From a virus, in IMG/VR virus record IMGVR_UViG_3300042934_000928, positions 1 to 38,609 of that record: DNA of 38,609 nucleotides. One strand, written 5' to 3'. The position numbers and the translations under genes are program-made. Positions 8,681 to 38,582 of the stretch are shown here, piece after piece. The stretch's first letter is position 1. Each line of letters begins with the position of its first letter. Under the pieces are notes generated by a model that saw nothing but the letters and a program-made list of their open reading frames with translations, had not been told where the DNA came from and ran no database searches.

Positions 8681-9907
8681 CTACACAGCGATCTGCGTCA
8701 GGTAGTCGTTCAGGCCTTTGAGATTTTGCGGGTTAATGTCCTTCATGGATGCATTGGCATCTTTCAGGTAATCCCGAATATACGTGTTCATTTGTTCATC
8801 AGTTTGAATGTTGAGGCGGGCCCGGTGCTGATGCATGCGGATCATTTCTTGCTGATCCCACTCATGCGGAATGGAGCTCGGCTGTTGCGCTTGTTGCTCT
8901 TGCACAGCCGGCTGCGGCGCTCCTACCGGCGGGCCGTAGGTTTGGGGCTGGGCGTTGTACCCTTGCTGCTGTGCTTGACCCTGCGGTTGAGCTTGCCCTT
9001 GCGGCTGAGCGACATACGGCTGCTCCTGAACGCCTTGCGGCTGCTGTCCTGGCTGATGCTTTTGGTTCCATGCGTGATGCTCCGGCGTTCCTTCGTTGAA
9101 TGGGTTGAACGGATAGCTGTCTGGATCTTGTTGATTGAAAGCTCCGTTCGCCTGCTGGTTCACATCATGCACCCAGCTTTGCTGCTGCTGCTGCTGTTGC
9201 TGATATTGCGGCTGCTGCTGGTAGGGATCTACCGGCTGCCCCGCCCACTGTTGACCGCCTGGGAATTGATAGACGTTGCCTTGCTGCTGTTGACCGTATG
9301 GGTCAGGTTGTGCCGGCCAGCTTCCTTGCTGCACCCACCCGCCTTGAGGCGCTGGATACTGTTGCGGTTGCTGCTGTTGACCATACATGTTCGGCTGTTG
9401 TTGCGGCTGGCCAATCATGTAATTCGGATCGTTTTGAGTCTGAGCATAGTCGTCATCAACTTCGATCTTGATTTTCGAGTAAACGCTCTCGCCGATACCG
9501 AACAAGGATGCAGCTTTTTTAAAACAATCAGATGCCGCTGCCTTGTAAGCCGAGTTTTGATTATCCTTGCCACCGATCGCCACTTTGCTTCCGAACTGTG
9601 TGCGCTGGCCGATTCCTGCGATGAACAGATTACCACGAACATGGTACACGTATCCGTCGAATGACCAGGTGCTTGTTTTTTTATCGTATCTGTAGACCTC
9701 TTCTCTCCATTGATGGTCTACATCGAAATCCCAATATGTAGCTCCATCGACTGCGTGTTCGATGATCTGACGAACGGTGTTGTGGCCGAGCACCTTTTTG
9801 CCGTTGGCGTCGTCTTCCAACCACTCATCTTTGCACGCTTTCAGCTTTTCTTTCACCTTCTTGATCTGCTCGAAGTCGGGCAAATACTTCTCAATCGTTT
9901 GTCGCAT
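8681..9907 (-). CDS. Rad52-type single-strand annealing protein with Q-rich tail, 408 aa
   Basis: Anneals complementary single strands in phage recombination and recombination-dependent replication. The Rad52-fold signature runs from about residue 10 to 145: WSFDGYVYHVRGNLFIAGIG (81-100), then FGSKVAIGGKDNQNSAYKAA and SDCFKKAASLFGIGESVY (126-143). Residues about 165-345 are a low-complexity Gln/Pro/Gly/Tyr-rich segment with poly-Gln runs, probably disordered. A compact helical C-terminus (EMIRMHQHRARLNI, then a segment ending LKGLNDYLTQIAV) closes the protein. The ATG at 9907 is chosen because a TTGCAA-17-TATAAT promoter occupies 9970-9942, ruling out the upstream in-frame ATG at 9970. It is the first gene of the replication operon. 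Confidence 0.88.
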   Translation of the reverse strand: MRQTIEKYLPDFEQIKKVKEKLKACKDEWLEDDANGKKVLGHNTVRQIIEHAVDGATYWDFDVDHQWREEVYRYDKKTSTWSFDGYVYHVRGNLFIAGIGQRTQFGSKVAIGGKDNQNSAYKAAASDCFKKAASLFGIGESVYSKIKIEVDDDYAQTQNDPNYMIGQPQQQPNMYGQQQQPQQYPAPQGGWVQQGSWPAQPDPYGQQQQGNVYQFPGGQQWAGQPVDPYQQQPQYQQQQQQQQSWVHDVNQQANGAFNQQDPDSYPFNPFNEGTPEHHAWNQKHQPGQQPQGVQEQPYVAQPQGQAQPQGQAQQQGYNAQPQTYGPPVGAPQPAVQEQQAQQPSSIPHEWDQQEMIRMHQHRARLNIQTDEQMNTYIRDYLKDANASMKDINPQNLKGLNDYLTQIAV

Positions 9908-23189: not shown

Positions 23190-23218
23190 ATAATATCATG
23201 TAATGCGTTACACGGAAA
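23190..23218 (-). promoter_or_regulatory. Promoter with operator in the spacer
   Basis: Extended -10 TGATATTAT (-10 hexamer 23195-23190) with a weak -35 TTTCCG (23218-23213) at 17 bp. The motif GTGTAACGCATTAC (23213-23200), a near-perfect palindrome in its 12-bp core, fills the spacer, the classic place for a repressor. It would drive the second half of the structural genes from the 352-aa gene on. Confidence 0.6.
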
Positions 23219-28689: not shown

Positions 28690-28705
28690 GGTGGCCTTAG
28701 CCACC
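28690..28705 (-). terminator. Weak terminator-like hairpin spanning a stop codon
   Basis: Minus-strand RNA GGUGGC-UAAG-GCCACC followed by UUUCCCUUG; the TAA of the giant upstream gene is in the loop. The 6-bp stem and broken U tract mean partial termination at most. Confidence 0.35.
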
Positions 28706-31700
28706 GATCGCCTTGACATAAATAAAGCTGCTTGCTAATTCTCCGCCCATATTGTAGCTGGCCTGGACCGCCATCAATCCTTGAACCTCGCTGATTCCGT
28801 TCAGGGCAATTTGGGTATCGCCCAAACTGTTCGTGGTCACAGCTTGGCTTCTTGTAATGCCTTTCGTGTCTTTATAGCTAACAGCGATCGACTTGCCTGC
28901 CAGCCCGATCCAGTTCTCGTCTTTCAATGAGATCGTAATCACGGCCTGATCGTTTCGCCCGGCAAGGAGCACCGGCTTGCTCGATTTCAGAACGACGTGG
29001 TAGCGGTCTGCCACAGACGGCCGATAGTAATTGAGAAGCGCCACCGAGCTCTTGCCTTCGGAGATGGCCTCGTACTTGGAGATTAGGCCCGCCGGTGCGA
29101 CCGGGATATCCTGCTTGTAGACCTCGCCGGCTTGGTTCGTAAAGCCGGAATAGATCAGCTCACCGTCCCGATAGACATCGACCCTCTTGTTCTCGATCGG
29201 GTTGTTGTGCCGATCCCGCACCTGCGCCGTGATGTTGGCTTTGCTGAGGCCGTCGGCAGGCAGCGTCCCCGGCGAAACATGAATCGCAATCTGCTCCACG
29301 GTCTCCTCGGTGCGCTCCGTCATATATAGGAAGCCTCGGTGGTTGTGGTTTAGAATCGGATTCATCACGATCTCTTCGGCCCGGTAGAATGGCGTCGTCT
29401 TTGCTGCCTCGTACACGATCTCCATGTTCTGCATGTCCACCGGGTTGTAGGCTGTGTGCAGCAAGATTCTCGCCACATCGCCCGCCACATCATGGTTGTA
29501 ATCGATCAGATAGCTGTAAAGCAGCTTATACCTAACCTCGATTATATCATGAAATTCCAGGCTGTTGCTGAACTGCAGACAAGATTTTTCTTGATCGAAG
29601 ACGGGCATTACACTCTTTCCATTCACCTTAATCTTGAGTGTTGCCGGGTCAATATCCGTGTAGCTCAAGTAGTAGGTGGCGTAGCCGTTGCCGCTGAAGC
29701 TCTCCGTGTTTTCCAGCGTTAGATTCCACTGGTCATCGTAGAAGGAAACCTTGCGCAGCGACGTGCCTTTGTTGTCCCGCACGATGATCGGTGCGCCTTG
29801 CTGCGGTCGGGGTTGGATAAGCACTTGGTAATCGACCGGCGTCTTCACATGCTTGATCGCTTCAGCGTATAGGTAGTGCTCCCGCTCCTGAAAGTAGTAG
29901 TGGCCTGCATGGACCATCGGATTCCACGGCAGCGGCGCCGCTTCTTTGATCACGGCATTGACCTGATACCCAAGATACGGTGTCAAGGCTTCCGTCGGCA
30001 CGATCTCCCGCTGTCTTCCCGGCACCGTCCACTCCAGCTTAACCGCTGCACTACCGCCGTTCTCATAGTAGTTGGCATCGAGCGCATACGATTTGCCGCC
30101 CTCCAGGTAAAGGGATCCGCTGTACTCCACGTTGCCGTTATCCCACCACGCATCGATCACTTTCTTATTGTCGATCCACAGCCGGAAGCCGTCATCCACG
30201 GTGACATGGAACGTATAGTACCCGGAAACAGGTGCGTGAATGTAGCCTCTCCAACTGATCGCAAATCCATCTTCTGGTGTATTGTCATCCGGCGGCGTGA
30301 GTTGCGGAATGTATGGCTCAGGATTCCGTGGTACATACACATCGGTCGGACTATCTGGCTCCAAGTATTCCTGCTCCGTTTCCCGGTAGTCATCCCACTT
30401 CGGCTCTTCCGGCATCGTTTCCGGCATCGTGATGACCTCGGTGAACACCTGCGCTTCTTTGTTCTGCGTGGCCGTTTCCCGACCCTTATCGTTTCGCCAG
30501 GTGGCAACCTTCATCATCATGTTGATCCAGAGCTTCATCTCGTTATCCGAGAACTGCTGAATGAAGGTCCCGTCACACTGGTAAGTGGCATGACCGGCTT
30601 CCGAGTAAAAGACGTTTCCGACTCCCTTGAGCCAAGCATAGGATGGGTTTTCCGAAAACATATAGTATTCCTGACCACCATACACATGCGTCGTATGTGC
30701 GGTTGTCACATCCAGCTCATGCGCCAGATCATACGGATACTTCATCCACTCCTGCTCAACGTTCGGTTTGATCTTGGATAGCATCCCGCTCCACGGCCGG
30801 TTGTTGTCGATCGTGAATCCGAACTCCGCCAGCAGCCCCCTTGCGAGTGGCTTGGCATCGGTGTAGCCGGAGTCGTGACTGAAGATGATGACTTTCTTCT
30901 TCCGGTTGAAATCCCGCACAAACTCGACCATGCCGGCATCCAGAAAATCTTGATTTGCATTACAGTCGGCCGGGGTGAATGTCAGAACATCAAAGTCATC
31001 GACCTTGTATTTTGAGTAGTTCTCATAGGTGTCTTGCGTCACCGTGATTTTCTCGAACGGATTGAAGTCGCCAAATTTCTGCACCCCGAGCTGGATCGTC
31101 GTCATGCCCGCCGGGTTTGGTTTCAGGATCGAAGGTGTCAGCTCCAGCACACGGACCGTATGGTTCGGACTGAAGTACACCGGATGGGTGCTGTTGTCCC
31201 GCTCGATCTTGAAATCGATCACGAGATCACTTGCTGTTAGCTGTGGGTGATCGGCCAGAAACTTGGCAATTTCCGAAGCAAATTCCTGTTCCATCGGATG
31301 CTCCACAATCGGCAGCTGAATCGATCTGGCATTGTCCATCGCCGGCCGTGGTATATCCTTCTGGATAGCATGTCGGAACGTAGCATCCTGCAGGTGCGTT
31401 TGTTTCAGGAACTTCGATATCGTGAAATCCCAGAAGAACGTCTGCGGCTGCGACCAGGTAAGCGGCCCCCATGCGCCGGTCGTCAGTGCCCCTGGCGCAT
31501 CGTCCACGAGATTAAATTTCTCGTTTCCGTTCACCGTGACCTTAATGCTATTGCCAACCACCCGGATCTTAATTTCATTGATCTGGCTGGCACCGAACGC
31601 CCACGATTCCGCCAAGTGGCCGAGTCGCACCTTATCATACTGGAGCGAGACGATGCCGGCTCCTTCGGGGTTCTTGCAGATGTTCCGGTAGACGGCCATT

Positions 31701-34700
31701 CCGTAGATACTCACGCCTGCTCCTCCGCTCGTCAGCGCCGCATCCCACTCAAACGAATAGAAGCTCAGCGTCTTTGGATTGAAGCGGAAAATGGCACCAT
31801 ACATATCGTCATCACCGGAAGCTCGCTCCTGCACCTTAAACGAGAATGTGTAATCGGTGAAGTCGGCGTGACTTGGATTGTACCAGCCCGACCGGGCGCC
31901 CTGATTGATCACGTCGGTCACTTCCGGGTAGCCGGCTTCCGGCGGCCCGTGCCATTCTCCTTTGTTGTTCGGATCCTCATCCCATACCTTCCACTGGTTC
32001 GTGAAATTACTGAGATCAATGGCCTCGGTCGAGGGATAGGCGATCTCCAGATCCAGATTAAAATCGAACTTCATCGTATCCGGAATGGCCTCCATGGCCA
32101 TGAAACTCTGCGCCTGCACGAATGGCGACGACGCCCCCCAGTTGAAGTCGATGTTGCTGTCGATCCGAGAGAACTCGTACTCGCCCAAGTAATTATCCTT
32201 TGAGGCATCGAACTCGCCTGTGACCGTATACGACTGAATGTGGATCCAATCGTTTAAGCGAAGCAGCTCCTTCTGCACGATCAGCTGCACGCCGCTGATG
32301 CTGTACTTCGTGTCGTCGATCGGCACTCCGTTCAGGAACACCTGCTTGTTCAGTCCGACGCCATGGTTCAGCACGAAGATATTGCTCACCCCGCCCATCG
32401 AGTAGACGACCTGCACGTCGCCTGGCTTGATGAAGCTGCCATGGATCTCAAACGTATGGCCGCTCACTGTATAGCCGTTCGTCGCATCCTGCGGCATCGT
32501 CACGCCATCCTGCTTCACCTCTTCGATGACGATCGGATCGTTCTCCATGAACTCGAACGTCGTGCGCATCGACATGTTGCCTACCCGCACTCCGCCGGCC
32601 TTGTATTCGATCTTTACGACATCGGTTAGTAGCAGCGGCGCCGTTACGGCGATGTGCTTCTGGGTGTTCGTGAACTGCGTCGTTTCCGCATCGTTCACTT
32701 TCACCACGACGGATCCAGTATCCGGCACATAGCGGATACCAAACGATTGCTGTGCCGCCCCCAGGTTATGCGTGACCGCATACGGTGCGTCCCTCAGCCC
32801 GGCATTACGGATGACGACGTTCCACTCGCCCGGGATCGGATCGGTAAACGTCATTTGCTCCATGCCGCCTTGATCCCCGCTGAACTCATATTGCGAGCAG
32901 CTCTTGCGATCGGTCAGCGTCAGCGGAAGCGTGCCCCAGGTATCATTGAGAAATGACAAGCCAAATGATTCGCCGTTCGGAGCGATCACGTTCAGGTCTG
33001 GATATTCAGAGCCCGCACCGAGCATGAAGCTGCCGAGAATCGTAAGCTCCGGCTGCCCGCCTGGTACCTGAATTGTAGTCGCCGATCTATACTCCTTGGC
33101 TTTGATGATGCCTCGCACCGGAACGCTTCCGGCCAGGAATACTTCAGCCGCTTGGTCGCCGGGAAAGTACGTGTCTTCGATCTCATCGTTGACGTTGAAG
33201 ATCTGTAGCTTCCGATGGTAGTCGCCCCCCACCGTCCACGCCTGTTGCCTGACCTCGGTCATTTGCGGGAACTGATAATACGACCCATAGAGCCCTTGCG
33301 TATCGCCTTGCGTCTGATCGACCCAAGTCGATACAAACGGATTGTTACTCGTGACTTCAATGCGGTCCACGATGACGTTGTGGTCATACTGCGGATCATC
33401 GGTCGGCAGCACCTTCACCGGCTCCGTGATCACCATTCGTGCATTCCGCTTGGCCATGTATGTTGTTGGATCTTCCTTCCATGGCGTGAACCAGTCGGTG
33501 TACCAGATGTACTGATCCTGGAACTCGGAGGAGAACGTGATCGTCTTGCGGTTGCTGTCATAAACGAACTTGATCCGGGCATCGTTGACCTCGATAAACG
33601 GACCTTGAATGTTGGTCAGGTTCTCAGGCAGGAACACCACGTCGGCCGGCACATCGGCGAGATCCGCCTTGCCTTTTGTTTCCGTCATGTATGGCCGTTT
33701 TCCGTTCACCTTGCCGTAGCCGATATACTGCCCCGAGATCCATGGGATGTAGCGAGGATCCGGATCACACACGACCACGATGCGGTCTTCCATCTTATCG
33801 GTCTTGATCAGCGGAGCGCTAGTCATCGGATTGTTCTGGGTCGCATTGCGGGTTGTGACCGATGGGCTGCCCTCCCAATACATCCAGACATGCGGCTTGC
33901 CAATCGGTGCCTTTTGCATGACGTAATGCACGTCTTCAAAATGATATGGCATCGGCGTTTTCTTATAAGGCTCGACGTAATGCTCCGGCATCGGCGGGAT
34001 CTGGATATACACTTTCTTCTTGCTTGTCACCGTACCCTCGTTGAGAATGTCGGCCGGGAAGGTGCCCTGATACCACTCCGTCGTTTTAATCATGAGGATG
34101 TCGTTGCCGTTTGTCGTCATCCGCTCAGTCGGCGAGCTGGCCCATTGGATCTGATCATAGACCGGATTGAACGCCTCGCTGTTGTTGAAGATCTCCAGTG
34201 TATACTCGACCCAGGTGCCGCCACCGAACTCCTCAGCGAGCGGCTTCATGACCCAATCCTGGTACGCATAAGCCGTCACGACAAACTCCTTGGTCGTCAC
34301 GTTTTCTTGGGCCGTCGCATTCCACATCGTCAACTTCTTGTTATCATCCCAGGCGTACTGGGTATCCTCAGAGGACGGCTTCACGAGCGTATATACCGGG
34401 CGCACTTCCGTCAGATCCGGGTTGTCGGATTTGAACTTGGCCAGCTCCTGCACGAACAGCTTGGTCACATCATCAATGACCACGAGACCATTTTCCTTGC
34501 TCGTGTTGTCTGGCGTGATCTTGGCGGTCCCCTTCTTCGTCGAATTGATCGAGACGATCTCACCAGCATTCTGGGGATTGTTCGTCTTGATCTTAACTGG
34601 GCCAGCGTACTCCACAGAAACGGATCCGGTGCTTTCATCCTTCACATGCTTGGAGATGGCCTTGACGATATAGTTCGGCGGCAGATACCCACCTAGCTCC

Positions 34701-35938
34701 TTCTGGATGCTGCCGGCAATATATTGGTTGGCGTTATTCGTTACCGTCTTCTCGGTTCCGCCGGAGTAAGTTTCCCAATCGGTATACCCAGAGGCGTCAT
34801 TATACTTGGCGTAATCGACCTTATGGAACTGGATGGCCTGTGAGAAGTTGGCGATCCCGAAGCTGCCGGTATCCCATTCGGTGGTCAGCTCGAACACTTT
34901 TTGCTTCGATACGCCCGGCCGGGATAGGAAGATCTCCGTCTTGTCGCCGATCGAGATGGCTTCGATCGTATTCATCTGATTCATGTTCCAGCCTGGGATA
35001 TTGGTGGCATCCGGCTGAGTGACACGATACAGCTTGTTGCCGACGACCTTGTATACCCGGAAGTGATTATGCTTCCAGCCCGTATCGTTAACATACGTTT
35101 CGTATTGGGTGGCCGTCTTATAATCTCTCGACTTGATCATGTACTGATCCCACTGGCCGCTGTCGTTGCCGGTGGAAATATTTGCTCCATCGAGATCGTC
35201 TGCCATCCTCCAAGATCCTTTGACCCGATCATGGCGTTCCCACATGGCGATATAGAAATTCGATTTGTTCTTGGCTCTGAAGATCAAGCAGGCCAAGTCA
35301 TCGTCATCACCGCCGGGATCGTCCGTGCCGACGGCCAGGATTGGATAGAAGTCAGCGCTTACCCGATAGTCCTTGTCGTTGTAGCGGACCACACCATTGG
35401 CGATCGTGCCGCTCCAATGTGTACGGTTGACCGTTTCGTAAACATAGGACCCATCATTACTGAGCTTCCATACATCCGATGCACCCGCTCCGATGTAATC
35501 GCTCTTGCCCGAGGAGAAATCAAACAGCTCCTTGGCCGAGAACTGCTCATTGGTTTCGTAGCTGATTCCCCAGCCGAGACGCCACTCCATCGTCTTCGTG
35601 CCGACGACCCCGCCGACATCGAGCCGTATTTCCCAATCCCGGTCCACCGGAAGCCTGCGCCGCTCCGTGATGTTGTACTCGAACTTCTTGCCCGGGTACG
35701 CATCGATCGTGGCCTTGTAAGGCGATTCATTGTCATCGATAAACAGGTCGCCTTTGTACTGGATCCCATACTGGAAAGGAATTTCTGGATGGATCAAGGT
35801 CTCATGCTTGCGCCGGCCCCGCATCCTAGCGGCATACTGAAACGGCATCGTCTGATCCTCGGAAGCGGGCTGCTTGACCAGCAGATCATCATTGTCGCCG
35901 ATGCCGGAATGAAAGGCGTGTTTTTTCTCCTTGCTCAA
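28697..35938 (-). CDS. Giant tail-fibre/adhesin with PA14, GATase1-like and Big_1-like domains, 2,413 aa
   Basis: Approximate domain order (counting from the GTG at 35947, three codons upstream): two short PFQY repeats near 34-65; concanavalin-like domain 150-385 (DDDDLACLIFRAKNKSNFYI); long beta region; second concanavalin/TSP-C-like domain 1320-1510 (NPSHADFTDYTFSF, GDDDMYGAIFRF); GATase1-like domain 1650-1818 (FDVLTFTPADCNANQDFLDA, KKKVIIFSHDSGYTD, FYSEAGHATY, NEMKLWINMMMKVATW), recalling DUF5057-type domains; PA14 domain 1885-1990 (SWRGYIHAPVSGYYTFHV, DDGFRLWIDNKKVID); two Big_1-like Ig domains 2215-2412. PA14 and Ig modules usually bind glycans. TTG at 35938 is preferred because AGGTGA sits five bases upstream and overlaps the GTG at 35947. 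It is the largest gene in the window and probably the main host-contact fibre. Confidence 0.82.
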   Translation of the reverse strand: MSKEKKHAFHSGIGDNDDLLVKQPASEDQTMPFQYAARMRGRRKHETLIHPEIPFQYGIQYKGDLFIDDNESPYKATIDAYPGKKFEYNITERRRLPVDRDWEIRLDVGGVVGTKTMEWRLGWGISYETNEQFSAKELFDFSSGKSDYIGAGASDVWKLSNDGSYVYETVNRTHWSGTIANGVVRYNDKDYRVSADFYPILAVGTDDPGGDDDDLACLIFRAKNKSNFYIAMWERHDRVKGSWRMADDLDGANISTGNDSGQWDQYMIKSRDYKTATQYETYVNDTGWKHNHFRVYKVVGNKLYRVTQPDATNIPGWNMNQMNTIEAISIGDKTEIFLSRPGVSKQKVFELTTEWDTGSFGIANFSQAIQFHKVDYAKYNDASGYTDWETYSGGTEKTVTNNANQYIAGSIQKELGGYLPPNYIVKAISKHVKDESTGSVSVEYAGPVKIKTNNPQNAGEIVSINSTKKGTAKITPDNTSKENGLVVIDDVTKLFVQELAKFKSDNPDLTEVRPVYTLVKPSSEDTQYAWDDNKKLTMWNATAQENVTTKEFVVTAYAYQDWVMKPLAEEFGGGTWVEYTLEIFNNSEAFNPVYDQIQWASSPTERMTTNGNDILMIKTTEWYQGTFPADILNEGTVTSKKKVYIQIPPMPEHYVEPYKKTPMPYHFEDVHYVMQKAPIGKPHVWMYWEGSPSVTTRNATQNNPMTSAPLIKTDKMEDRIVVVCDPDPRYIPWISGQYIGYGKVNGKRPYMTETKGKADLADVPADVVFLPENLTNIQGPFIEVNDARIKFVYDSNRKTITFSSEFQDQYIWYTDWFTPWKEDPTTYMAKRNARMVITEPVKVLPTDDPQYDHNVIVDRIEVTSNNPFVSTWVDQTQGDTQGLYGSYYQFPQMTEVRQQAWTVGGDYHRKLQIFNVNDEIEDTYFPGDQAAEVFLAGSVPVRGIIKAKEYRSATTIQVPGGQPELTILGSFMLGAGSEYPDLNVIAPNGESFGLSFLNDTWGTLPLTLTDRKSCSQYEFSGDQGGMEQMTFTDPIPGEWNVVIRNAGLRDAPYAVTHNLGAAQQSFGIRYVPDTGSVVVKVNDAETTQFTNTQKHIAVTAPLLLTDVVKIEYKAGGVRVGNMSMRTTFEFMENDPIVIEEVKQDGVTMPQDATNGYTVSGHTFEIHGSFIKPGDVQVVYSMGGVSNIFVLNHGVGLNKQVFLNGVPIDDTKYSISGVQLIVQKELLRLNDWIHIQSYTVTGEFDASKDNYLGEYEFSRIDSNIDFNWGASSPFVQAQSFMAMEAIPDTMKFDFNLDLEIAYPSTEAIDLSNFTNQWKVWDEDPNNKGEWHGPPEAGYPEVTDVINQGARSGWYNPSHADFTDYTFSFKVQERASGDDDMYGAIFRFNPKTLSFYSFEWDAALTSGGAGVSIYGMAVYRNICKNPEGAGIVSLQYDKVRLGHLAESWAFGASQINEIKIRVVGNSIKVTVNGNEKFNLVDDAPGALTTGAWGPLTWSQPQTFFWDFTISKFLKQTHLQDATFRHAIQKDIPRPAMDNARSIQLPIVEHPMEQEFASEIAKFLADHPQLTASDLVIDFKIERDNSTHPVYFSPNHTVRVLELTPSILKPNPAGMTTIQLGVQKFGDFNPFEKITVTQDTYENYSKYKVDDFDVLTFTPADCNANQDFLDAGMVEFVRDFNRKKKVIIFSHDSGYTDAKPLARGLLAEFGFTIDNNRPWSGMLSKIKPNVEQEWMKYPYDLAHELDVTTAHTTHVYGGQEYYMFSENPSYAWLKGVGNVFYSEAGHATYQCDGTFIQQFSDNEMKLWINMMMKVATWRNDKGRETATQNKEAQVFTEVITMPETMPEEPKWDDYRETEQEYLEPDSPTDVYVPRNPEPYIPQLTPPDDNTPEDGFAISWRGYIHAPVSGYYTFHVTVDDGFRLWIDNKKVIDAWWDNGNVEYSGSLYLEGGKSYALDANYYENGGSAAVKLEWTVPGRQREIVPTEALTPYLGYQVNAVIKEAAPLPWNPMVHAGHYYFQEREHYLYAEAIKHVKTPVDYQVLIQPRPQQGAPIIVRDNKGTSLRKVSFYDDQWNLTLENTESFSGNGYATYYLSYTDIDPATLKIKVNGKSVMPVFDQEKSCLQFSNSLEFHDIIEVRYKLLYSYLIDYNHDVAGDVARILLHTAYNPVDMQNMEIVYEAAKTTPFYRAEEIVMNPILNHNHRGFLYMTERTEETVEQIAIHVSPGTLPADGLSKANITAQVRDRHNNPIENKRVDVYRDGELIYSGFTNQAGEVYKQDIPVAPAGLISKYEAISEGKSSVALLNYYRPSVADRYHVVLKSSKPVLLAGRNDQAVITISLKDENWIGLAGKSIAVSYKDTKGITRSQAVTTNSLGDTQIALNGISEVQGLMAVQASYNMGGELASSFIYVKAIGG
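28854..28865 (+). promoter_or_regulatory. Intragenic copy of the operator core, opposite orientation
   Basis: The plus strand reads GTAATGCCTTTC, identical over 12 bp to the core at the 38.5-kb promoter. It lies near the 3' end of the giant fibre gene with no promoter elements beside it. It may be chance. Confidence 0.2.
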
Positions 35939-35965: not shown

Positions 35966-35990
35966 GCCAGCACCATGGCATGATGCTGGC
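35966..35990 (-). terminator. Terminator-like hairpin after the exported-protein gene
   Basis: In minus-strand RNA GCCAGCAUCAU and AUGGUGCUGGC form an 11-bp stem (one G-U pair) with a 3-nt loop, followed by UAGUUUCUC. The stem is strong and the U tract imperfect. It begins seven nucleotides after the gene's stop codon and precedes the giant fibre gene, so some read-through is expected. Confidence 0.6.
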
Positions 35991-35997
35991 CGGATCA

Positions 35998-36918
35998 TTA
36001 AATTCTTGGTGTTTCTTGGCCATCCTTATTTGTCCGCTGTGGCTGGCCAGATGGATTTTTCTCCGTGGATTTTCCGGGCAGCGGGTTCTCCATCTCGTTC
36101 AGCGGGATCCCGTTTTGCTTCAGCTGCAGATAGATCTTGTAAACCGTAAAGCGATGGAACGGTTTACTGTAGGAAGATAGCTCATCTTCGTCGATGCTGC
36201 TGTCATTCACGCCAACCCACGAGGCTTTCGCAAACTCGTTGACATAGTAGAGCATATTGAATCCATCTGGCTCGGAGATCTTCATTCCCTTCAGATAATC
36301 GAGGTCGGCCTGTAGCTCCTCGGCGAACATCTTGTGATAGGAGATCGCAGCGCTTTGCGTCTTCTTGCCCGCCTTATATTCCTGCAGGTTTTCCAGCAGG
36401 AGCGACTGGTAGCCACCAAGGTTGAAACCGATTGCCGCCGCCTTTTTATCCTTAAAGGAGATGGGCTTCAGGTTGCCAAAGGTACTCGGATCCTTGATCG
36501 TCTCAGGCAGCTTCACCGGCTCGCCGTTAAACAGCTTGTCGATGTCGTTTTGTTCCACGGCCGGTTTCGTTGACGTAGCCGGCTTCTCTTCCTTCCCTGC
36601 CGGAATCTCGCCCTCATATATGTGGACGGTCTTGTTGTCGCCATCATAGACCAAGTTGAGGCCCAGCAGATCCGTCAGCTCCCGAATGCTGAAATACATC
36701 CGGCCCTCATACAGAATCGGCGGCCGATCCTCAGAGACACTCTGCTCCGTGCTCTTGCCTGCTTTATCGACCAGGTAAAACTTGAATCCATCCGGGAAAA
36801 AGATCTCCGTCCATTTGCTTGCGGCTTGCTGATTGGCTGCAGCAAACGTGACGCCCGCCGTGAAAACCCCCATCATCATGACGGCAAATACCATAATCCC
36901 TAGCAATCTACGCTTCAT
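35998..36918 (-). CDS. Exported protein with copper-amine-oxidase-N-like stalk domain (moron), 306 aa
   Basis: MKRRLLGIMVFAVMMMGVFT with AGVTFAAANQ after it is a clear Sec signal peptide, probably cut near residue 27. Residues 40-102 match the CuAO_N stalk domain common in Paenibacillus secreted proteins (ILYEGRMYFSIRELTDLLGL, then DNKTVHIYE). A Lys/Pro/Thr-rich linker follows, then a helical region (about 160-270: YQSLLLENLQEYKAGKKTQS) and a polar tail. Virion proteins do not normally carry signal peptides, so this is likely a host-surface or secreted protein expressed from its own promoter, placed between two tail genes. Superinfection exclusion or lysogenic conversion would be typical moron roles, but neither is shown. 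The ATG at 36918 follows GGGAGAGAG. Confidence 0.8.
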   Translation of the reverse strand: MKRRLLGIMVFAVMMMGVFTAGVTFAAANQQAASKWTEIFFPDGFKFYLVDKAGKSTEQSVSEDRPPILYEGRMYFSIRELTDLLGLNLVYDGDNKTVHIYEGEIPAGKEEKPATSTKPAVEQNDIDKLFNGEPVKLPETIKDPSTFGNLKPISFKDKKAAAIGFNLGGYQSLLLENLQEYKAGKKTQSAAISYHKMFAEELQADLDYLKGMKISEPDGFNMLYYVNEFAKASWVGVNDSSIDEDELSSYSKPFHRFTVYKIYLQLKQNGIPLNEMENPLPGKSTEKNPSGQPQRTNKDGQETPRI

Positions 36919-36948
36919 CTTGCTCTCTCCCTATTAGTTGATGTTTCC

Positions 36949-36978
36949 ATTATAAACCAACTATAGTTGAGAGAACAA
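36949..36978 (-). promoter_or_regulatory. Moron promoter with centred palindromic operator
   Basis: TTGTTC (36978-36973) and TATAAT (36954-36949) are 18 bp apart on the minus strand. The spacer holds the perfect 12-bp palindrome CAACTATAGTTG (36958-36969) with exactly three bases on each side. A half-site-like TAGTTGATG lies again near 36935. The arrangement indicates control by a dimeric regulator different from the one for the GTGTAAYG motif. Confidence 0.65.
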
Positions 36979-36994
36979 GAGAAAACGAGAGGTA

Positions 36995-38473
36995 TCAAGA
37001 GATAGTAGAAGGTTTGGCGTCAAACATGTAGTTTTTCCAAACTTCAATGTCAGAATCCCACATATTCGGCAGATAGCCGAGTCCGGTGAGTGACGGATCG
37101 ATTGTGTCCCAGAATCCTTCATCCCAGTTGAACTTACCCCACATGATCGGAGCGACCTGGTTAATATAGGCCACCCAGTTCTCCAGCGTCGAGGTCGCTT
37201 GGCCATCCGGCTGGTACATGATGCTGTGCAGCTCCTCGTCATCCGGATCGTGGAGTTCATGCTTCTTGATGCCTTGAATAAAGCTGACGGTGTGCTTTAC
37301 CCCGCTGTTCATGCTGAATAGAATGATGGATCCGTCGGGCTGCAGGTCATACATCTGAGGAGCCAGTTTCTGGCCGTCGAGCCGCAGCGTCCGTGGATCG
37401 ATTCCTTTTCCCCTGATCCGTAGATTCTTGGTGTCGTTATTCCAGGTGAACCGCTTGATTAGATTCATCTCCCGGCTGATCGCATGCGTAAGCCCCAGGT
37501 CACTGCTGTTGGCCTGATAGCGGAAGGCATCGAGGATCCGATCCTTGTAATTAGCGTTTGTCTCCAAGTGCAGCCGCTCTACCCCGGCTAGGAGTCCAAA
37601 CTCATCAAACGGATTCCAGATGTGGTGCGGAATTGGCATGGCGGTAAATGCGGATCCGTTTACCGTGACCTCCAGCGGCTCGAAGCGGTACTGCGAATAC
37701 ATGCGCCGATTTTTCGTATCGACGACGCCGCCCGCCCCCAGCTTGTTATAGAAGAAGCTTCGGAGATCCGGGAGCAGAGGCACATCTTTACCGGCCGACC
37801 GGAATGTTGTCGTATCCCCCGGTGCGATTGACGGCAGCTCGTAGACATACACCCAATCGATAATCTTGGTGTTCAGGAGCGGGAGGAATTTCTGGGTCTT
37901 GATGTCTGTAATATCGTCTTCGGCCACTTCTAATTGCATGGCCAAAAAGTTCATAAACCGCTGACCGTTACTCTCCCTGGATTGCCGGATGAACGTCCAC
38001 AGTGGAAACTCATCCCCAACCGTTCGCTGCGTATACGACGAGTACCAGTATTCATTAAGGAATACGGCAACCGGACCTAAACGATTTGTTGCTGCTCGCA
38101 GCACATAATTCTTTTCGTCACATGTCGTATCCAGACGTATCCAGCTTAATCCGTCATACACGCAGATAACTGCATATCTAGCTTCTGTGGCAGTCAGCCG
38201 ATTCGTATATGGAATTTCAAGTGAAATATCTACAAGACTCGGCTCCACTGCGTCTGCAGCACTGAATATTTGCGATGAAATCAAGAATTGCAGATTAGTG
38301 GGTTTATGCTTTTCGTAGTTCGGATCCACAATATTGTCTATGGGGCGCTGCTGAATAAGCGGGTCTACTTTTTCCTCGCAGACGATTCTAAAATTACTGA
38401 GAACTTTAATGTCCTTGCTTTCCCAGACAAAGGGGACCGTTGCAGCATCCGAAAATGCTGATTCTAAATACAT
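36995..38473 (-). CDS. Tail/baseplate structural protein, 492 aa
   Basis: Residues about 315-350 carry ETNANYKDRILDAFRYQANS followed by SDLGLTHAISREMNL, a wording I know from phage baseplate or tail-fibre attachment proteins. The N-terminal third is beta-rich (LVDISLEIPYTNRLTATEAR, TRLGPVAVFLNE region), the middle helical (RFMNFLAMQLEVAEDDITDI) and the C-terminus contains a small beta domain (KNLRIRGKGIDPRTLRL, then SGVKHTVSFIQG). The ATG at 38473 has CGGAGTG upstream; the frame extends to 38500 but that would run into the promoter. It is the first gene of the structural operon in this window, and likely connects the fibres to the tail. Confidence 0.72.
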   Translation of the reverse strand: MYLESAFSDAATVPFVWESKDIKVLSNFRIVCEEKVDPLIQQRPIDNIVDPNYEKHKPTNLQFLISSQIFSAADAVEPSLVDISLEIPYTNRLTATEARYAVICVYDGLSWIRLDTTCDEKNYVLRAATNRLGPVAVFLNEYWYSSYTQRTVGDEFPLWTFIRQSRESNGQRFMNFLAMQLEVAEDDITDIKTQKFLPLLNTKIIDWVYVYELPSIAPGDTTTFRSAGKDVPLLPDLRSFFYNKLGAGGVVDTKNRRMYSQYRFEPLEVTVNGSAFTAMPIPHHIWNPFDEFGLLAGVERLHLETNANYKDRILDAFRYQANSSDLGLTHAISREMNLIKRFTWNNDTKNLRIRGKGIDPRTLRLDGQKLAPQMYDLQPDGSIILFSMNSGVKHTVSFIQGIKKHELHDPDDEELHSIMYQPDGQATSTLENWVAYINQVAPIMWGKFNWDEGFWDTIDPSLTGLGYLPNMWDSDIEVWKNYMFDAKPSTIS

Positions 38474-38489
38474 GGTATCACTCCGTTCC

Positions 38490-38518
38490 TTGAAAGGCAT
38501 TACACATTTATTATATCA
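38490..38518 (-). promoter_or_regulatory. Structural-operon promoter with conserved element and operator
   Basis: Extended -10 TGATATAAT (hexamer 38515-38510) without a good -35, followed by the motif GTGTAATGCCTTTC (38505-38492). The 29-bp segment is 26/29 identical to 9979-10007 ahead of the replication operon. The predicted start (about 38503) is inside the motif. Confidence 0.65.
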
Positions 38519-38535
38519 AAACTTGCACATAAAGA

Positions 38536-38568
38536 AAGAGCATTTCCACGCAAGGCAGAAATGCTCTT
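38536..38568 (-). terminator. Rho-independent terminator of the upstream unit
   Basis: AAGAGCATTTC and GAAATGCTCTT form a perfect 11-bp stem with an 11-nt loop; on the minus strand it is followed by TCTTTATG. It lies directly upstream of the structural promoter, so it ends transcription coming from beyond the right edge. Confidence 0.75.
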
Positions 38569-38582
38569 CTCAGGCGGCTCGA

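Follow-up and report, generated by a model that had tools for sequence, protein, structure and literature searches.

A moron-like cassette in the tail module of a large Paenibacillus-type phage, with a phage-class promoter lacking the TGTAAYGCRTTACA palindrome

The window examined in this study is a linear viral record of 38,609 bases whose main genes lie on the minus strand, and a gene predicted to encode an exported protein is lodged in it between two tail genes. The sequence-only reading of this locus had described the gene as a moron furnished with its own promoter, palindromic operator and terminator. The questions which arise are whether the gene represents an independent addition to the tail module, under whose control it is placed and what its product may do for the phage. 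The moron concept derives from phages HK97 and HK022. Apparent morons are also present in phage 0305phi8-36 (PMC2147016).

Position and distribution of the cassette

The cassette and its neighbors are arranged as follows.
36995 to 38500, minus strand: upstream virion structural gene (phrog_21059; PHROGs match and sequence), its stop codon inside the TCTC array
36927 to 36931, minus strand: ribosome-binding site GGGAG of the exported-protein gene (read directly)
35998 to 36918, minus strand: exported-protein gene, 306 aa (open reading frame)
35966 to 35990, minus strand: conserved hairpin GCCAGC...GCTGGC, 11 bp, between this gene and the fiber gene (folds)
28697 to 35938, minus strand: downstream tail/fiber gene with PA14 and invasin-type domains (domain search and comparison), the probable start being TTG 35938 after AGGTGA rather than GTG 35947

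Relatives were gathered via the upstream virion gene, which provided seven close relatives, namely, L002 (229 kb), L003 (197 kb), L004 (with L008; 206 kb, Paenibacillus sp. TCA20), L005, L009 (Alicyclobacillus shizuokensis), L010 and L011. A counterpart of the exported-protein gene was located at the same site in two of these, L002 and L003, while it was absent from the site in L004, L005, L009, L010 and L011, in all of which the two flanking tail genes abut or overlap. The L003 homolog is similar to the window protein at 39 to 42% over 158 to 182 aa (E of approximately 1e-28 to 1e-30), and the L002 protein is identified as a counterpart from its position, its signal peptide and its C-terminal tail, overall similarity not being significant. 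In alignments, the exported proteins of the three holders are 24 to 31% identical, compared with 59 to 65% for the flanking virion gene. More distant relatives of the upstream gene occur in Moorella phage MTATph1 (34%) and Bacillus phage KLEB27-3 (42% identity), where no such cassette is annotated at the corresponding place.

The adjacency of the flanking genes in five relatives is that expected around an inserted moron, although the N terminus of the downstream fiber protein also differs: the five nonholders have approximately 600 N-terminal residues there that the window, L002 and L003 lack. No similarity of the exported protein to this lost fiber segment was found by sequence. When a tree was built from the upstream gene, one side of a single branch was formed by the window, L002 and L003 with a support of 81/91, below the mark of 95/80, and the three holders are regarded as a weakly supported clade. 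The GC content of the cassette gene (51.8%) lies between those of its neighbors (49.9% and 54.1%), and base composition gives no sign of recent import, the deviant composition typical of morons not being apparent.

As judged from these comparisons, the cassette is moron-like and lineage specific, because a counterpart exists in two of the seven relatives, the flanks adjoin in the other five, and the holders group as one clade; the proposal of a moron between two tail genes is borne out by the presence and absence of the gene at this position. The distribution is most simply accounted for by one replacement event in the ancestor of the holders. The cassette resembles described morons in being a single extra gene that has a promoter to itself, is followed by a hairpin and separates genes which adjoin one another in relatives. 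It differs from them in that its promoter is of the phage's own class, there is no compositional sign of recent import, the hairpin has no T-run, and the cassette sits at a truncation site of the neighboring fiber gene.

The exported protein and its domains

The following features were assigned to the 306-aa product.
36835 to 36918, minus strand: signal peptide, residues ~1 to 28, MKRRLLGIMVFAVMMMGVFTAGVTFAAA, without a lipobox (heuristic scan and sequence)
36607 to 36744, minus strand: half stalk domain, residues 59 to 104, corresponding to PF07833 positions 5 to 50 (Pfam, just below cut-off)
36064 to 36528, minus strand: helical domain, residues 131 to 285, predicted four-helix bundle (AlphaFold2)
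36001 to 36018, minus strand: conserved C-terminal tail QETPRI (QETPQV in L002, QKTPKI in L003; alignment)

The N terminus, MKRRLLGIMVFAVMMMGVFTAGVTFAAA, has the properties of a Sec-type signal peptide in a heuristic scan and on inspection, as the sequence-only reading had held, and the cysteine that would mark a lipoprotein does not follow its hydrophobic stretch. The stalk domain of that reading is retained in part: PF07833 matches the window protein over 5 to 50 of its 108 profile positions (E of 5.6e-5), that is, over half of the domain, with 23.5 bits against a cut-off of 24.2. The L003 homolog exceeds this cut-off with 34.8 bits, and the L002 counterpart has no PF07833 match. The helical domain occurs once in the window protein and twice each in those of L002 and L003 (BLASTP). 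The structure prediction which had been suggested as a check yielded a four-helix bundle for this domain (AlphaFold2 with the five domain copies as input; pLDDT 78.5, pTM 0.73), but the full-length model was poor (pLDDT 52), and fold matches from it were therefore left unused. Comparison of the helical-domain model with the PDB and viral models returned generic four-helix bundles and no informative structural relative, the best Foldseek E values being 0.67 in the PDB and 0.15 in viral models and the VIA Z of up to 9.2 falling within the range usual for helical bundles.

Searches of PHROGs, NCBIfam and PADLOC returned no informative match to the exported protein, neither a defense family nor a solved structure was matched by sequence, and among phage records and viral contigs the L002 and L003 proteins were its only relatives. 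It was the only sizeable nonmembrane exported protein found in the window by heuristic scan, and its counterparts in L002 and L003 are among very few such proteins there.

Proteins of Paenibacillaceae that carry PF07833 (Cu_amine_oxidN1, "stalk"), such as the P. lautus superoxide dismutase PaSOD and the 370-aa proteins L093 to L095, likewise combine a signal peptide and a stalk with a differing C-terminal domain, which in the host proteins is duplicated in tandem. The phage protein, unlike these, has only half a stalk; the host homologs share with it only the signal peptide and this half stalk, and the sequence of its predicted four-helix bundle was not found in the hosts searched. Stalk-type domains were also observed elsewhere in the relatives, at the C terminus of amidase-like endolysins (L037, 2498 to 3664; L038, 2366 to 3361) and as four PF07833 matches in a 700-aa exported-looking protein of MTATph1 (L041, 3124 to 5223).

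A promoter of an apparently phage-specific class

Upstream of the gene, the following elements were identified.
36973 to 36978, minus strand: -35-like TTGTTC (read directly; three of six positions fit the consensus), coinciding with the position of the class consensus TTGATT
36970 to 36993, minus strand: phase-repeated TCTC promoter element ACCTCTCGTTTTCTCTTGTTCTCT (array analysis and position weight matrix [PWM])
36949 to 36954, minus strand: -10 TATAAT (read directly), 15 nt past the TCTC element
38500 to 38515, minus strand: for contrast, the upstream virion gene's promoter, in which TATAAT precedes GTGTAATG and there is no TCTC array

The TTGTTC-18-TATAAT promoter proposed at 36978 to 36949 was not listed by a standard promoter scan, which overlooked it because its -35 fits at only three of six positions, and support for it is comparative. 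Copies of TCTC at 37002, 36990, 36982 and 36972 in the window are spaced by approximately 10 bp, no other array of this kind in the window being associated with a promoter, and TCTC motifs with this spacing lie upstream of TATAAT in all three holders. Beyond the cassette, the PD-(D/E)XK nuclease-like genes of G001, G002, G003, G004 and G006 are likewise headed by a TCTC element, there at 14 nt from TATAAT, and a TCTC element precedes, in G003 and G007, a gene whose product looks like an annealing protein (the name being our own reading of the gene), with TATCAT and GATAAT as -10s. The distance from the TCTC element to the -10 is 14 nt in most other class members, against 15 nt in the window.

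When a PWM trained only on the five nuclease-type promoters of relatives was scanned over the window, G001 and G002, it recovered the moron promoters independently, ranking them third to fifth (26.0, 26.0 and 21.3) behind two training members. The window promoter scored 21.3, a value which is not decisive alone because two nonpromoter sites scored 21.3 and 20.5 and the reversed-sequence control reached a maximum of 18.9; the 15-nt distance to a perfect TATAAT adds weight to its assignment. The best TCTC element of L002 is displaced upstream from the usual position 14 to 15 nt before the -10, and next to the moron -10 there is a half operator-like GTAATGCGT.

None of 75 related host genomes contained an exact match to the TCTC pattern and its TATAAT. 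When three or fewer mismatches were allowed, both matches in the TCA20 genome fell on the 206-kb phage contig, and other host genomes contained few three-mismatch matches, approximately as expected for so loose a search. A match in an Alicyclobacillus phage contig was set aside, having no -10. The promoter class thus appears, on these sequence comparisons, to be phage specific and otherwise to drive recombination genes.

Palindromes and the hairpin

The palindrome within the promoter and the sites of a second palindrome, TGTAAYGCRTTACA, are positioned as follows.
36958 to 36969, no strand: CAACTATAGTTG palindrome, 12 bp, centered in the spacer, probably not an operator
23199 to 23212, 38491 to 38515, 1475 to 1489, and 9994: TGTAAYGCRTTACA-type sites in the window (found also in relatives G001 to G007)

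The palindrome claimed for the promoter spacer is indeed CAACTATAGTTG, exactly centered, but an operator role for it was rejected, as it is not conserved and such palindromes are not in excess, with 8 perfect 12-bp palindromes observed in the window against 9.6 expected. A search for further sites showed six relatives to be devoid of CAACTATAGTTG, and no palindrome occupied the corresponding place in the promoter spacers of relatives. The chance of a centered 12-bp palindrome in one given spacer is approximately 3e-4, and that of one anywhere in the spacer approximately 2e-3, both figures being post hoc, as the palindrome was picked after the fact. The suggestion that this element answers to a repressor of the host or another prophage is not sustained, given its lack of conservation and the absence of the promoter class from the host chromosomes tested.

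The GTGTAAYG motif flagged in the earlier reading is, in its complete form, the palindrome TGTAAYGCRTTACA. All seven nuclease and annealing-gene promoters of the class carry it, or a near form, just past the -10, and all three moron promoters are without it, a split which is descriptive because the ten promoters are related by descent. With two or fewer mismatches, each relative record contains 17 to 51 such palindromes, against 0 to 3 in reversed controls; near-complete relatives hold approximately 40 to 50 copies, often directly past a -10. All 13 exact copies in the TCA20 genome lie on the 206-kb phage contig, and 39 related genomes hold 0 to 4 exact copies each. Because the TCTC element and TGTAAYGCRTTACA are nearly confined to phage contigs as opposed to host genomes, both are probably read by phage-encoded proteins. 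The reader of TGTAAYGCRTTACA is most likely a repressor, and TGTAAYGCRTTACA would then probably serve as operator for a phage repressor that governs a large regulon. By this comparison, the distinguishing mark of the moron promoter is the missing TGTAAYGCRTTACA and not CAACTATAGTTG.

Behind the gene, the 11-bp hairpin at 35966 to 35990 is present as the sequence-only reading placed it and is conserved in all holders, equivalents occurring in L002 and in L003, where the seventh pair has changed from A-U to G-C (one double change). A canonical terminator is not supported, since the hairpin is followed by TAGTTTCTC without a T-run and is not listed in a terminator scan of the window, and it is better called a conserved stem-loop. 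At 38535 to 38569, just upstream of the promoter of the phrog_21059 gene, the same scan detected a strong hairpin of 15 bp that resembles an intrinsic terminator and has a T-rich tail.

Proposed role of the cassette

The phage is considered to be a large, plasmid-like phage of Paenibacillus-type bacteria. An ALP_N (ParM-like) gene was present in all five tested phage records of at least 136 kb (G001, G002, G003, G007 and MTATph1), the tested Paenibacillus-type phage records yielded no integrase, and within a bacterial isolate genome G003 forms a contig of its own; the likely resident state is a plasmid prophage. It is documented that morons are frequently expressed in lysogens at a time when the lytic genes are silent (PMC7067206).

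Other features of the relatives were observed in passing. In MTATph1, the actin-like ALP_N/ParM-type partition gene (L041, 7110 to 7889) lies a few kilobases from a tyrosine recombinase, a combination of plasmid-like and prophage traits. The same ORF occurs at approximately 9258 to 9554 and 221028 to 221324 of G001 (the L002 record), and this spacing of 211,770 bases points to a genome of approximately 212 kb that is circular or terminally redundant. In G004 (L035, 6007 to 6843), an ORF resembling a LAGLIDADG-type homing endonuclease separates two parts of a putative DNA polymerase III alpha gene, possibly as an intron or intein insertion.

The cassette, its position, the signal peptide, the promoter class and the missing operator are read from sequence, and from these we propose the following course of events. 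The cassette would have replaced the N-terminal part of the tail-fiber gene in a single event in the common ancestor of the holders, and would be transcribed from its own promoter of the phage-specific class, independently of the repressor which, via TGTAAYGCRTTACA, presumably silences other promoters of the class. The product would be exported by Sec and probably held at the membrane-cell wall interface by its half stalk domain, displaying one or two four-helix bundles. Retention in the envelope is likely by analogy, because the P. lautus superoxide dismutase, which carries a stalk N terminus and a signal peptide, was not found in the medium, its authors supposing that it is trapped between membrane and peptidoglycan (PMC10432803). 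The protein would probably alter the infected cell's surface, because it is exported, has its own phage-type promoter and is confined to one branch of relatives. It would most likely be made while the phage is a plasmid prophage, thereby altering the cell envelope; that the gene is such a lysogeny-expressed envelope moron, expressed from its own promoter, is the reading to which we give slightly better than an even chance.

The favored function would be superinfection exclusion, on account of the analogy to exported Ltp-type proteins, the fast divergence of the protein (24 to 31% against 59 to 65%) and the lineage-specific distribution. Ltp-type exclusion proteins (that of TP-J34 and gp41 of C. 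acnes phage Aquarius [PMC11480721]) are likewise exported and phage encoded, their signal peptide being followed by one or two copies of a small domain. The phage protein, unlike these, is not a lipoprotein and bears a four-helix bundle of approximately 130 aa, and the likeness is one of description only. No tie of the helical domain or the protein to phage exclusion was found, and exclusion as the actual function is held to be possible but doubtful.

The position of the gene, exactly at the site of the lost fiber N terminus, within the tail module and in the same clade, would also suit a tail-associated or assembly protein that takes over from the lost 600 residues, is made in infection and, placed in the envelope, aids tail assembly, release or adsorption. 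This reading is considered unlikely, given the lack of sequence similarity to the lost fiber part, a divergence far exceeding that of the flanking virion gene, and a promoter class shared with the recombination genes rather than with the upstream virion gene. A Sec signal peptide is, moreover, unusual in a virion protein of a tailed phage. On its side, the authors of the 0305phi8-36 study proposed that stand-alone morons and virion proteins exchange domains (PMC2147016).

Control of the promoter may be envisaged in other ways. If the TCTC element works with an early activator of the phage, the exported protein would act early in infection, blocking competitors or adjusting the envelope, and would be silent in lysogens. 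This fits with the nuclease-like and putative annealing genes driven by the other class promoters, which are probably early, and with the failure to find the exact TCTC pattern in 75 related host genomes; however, the missing TGTAAYGCRTTACA suggests a regime unlike that of these genes, and we regard this alternative as rather unlikely. The same result in host genomes speaks against a host biofilm-type, SinR-like regulator acting on the moron promoter. While GTTCTCT at 36976 on the minus strand matches the consensus GTTCTYT exactly and SinR sites are present in multiple copies and in more than one orientation (PMC3163267), GTTCTYT is found seven times in the window, and SinR prefers inverted repeats tenfold (PMC3163267) whereas the TCTC array consists of direct repeats, making its involvement very improbable.

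Within the preferred reading, that of an envelope moron expressed in lysogeny, the regulatory and distributional data may tentatively be joined into a two-part code and a swap site, a combination about which we remain more skeptical than convinced. TCTC with TATAAT would mark the class and TGTAAYGCRTTACA past the -10 would add control by the phage repressor; the moron would have kept the class promoter and dropped TGTAAYGCRTTACA, so that the exported protein would be made while the recombination genes are off. Both ends of the cassette would be constant, one comprising the promoter and the signal peptide and the other the QETPxI tail and the hairpin, with the middle of the protein exchanged: stalk and one bundle, stalk and two, or two without a stalk.

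If true, a class promoter minus the repressor operator would represent a sequence rule for recognizing lysogeny-expressed genes in large, little-known plasmid-like phages, and the exported protein family would be named as a phage-exclusion candidate in Paenibacillaceae. The cassette would, furthermore, exemplify a moron that is built with the phage's own promoter rather than imported under foreign control.
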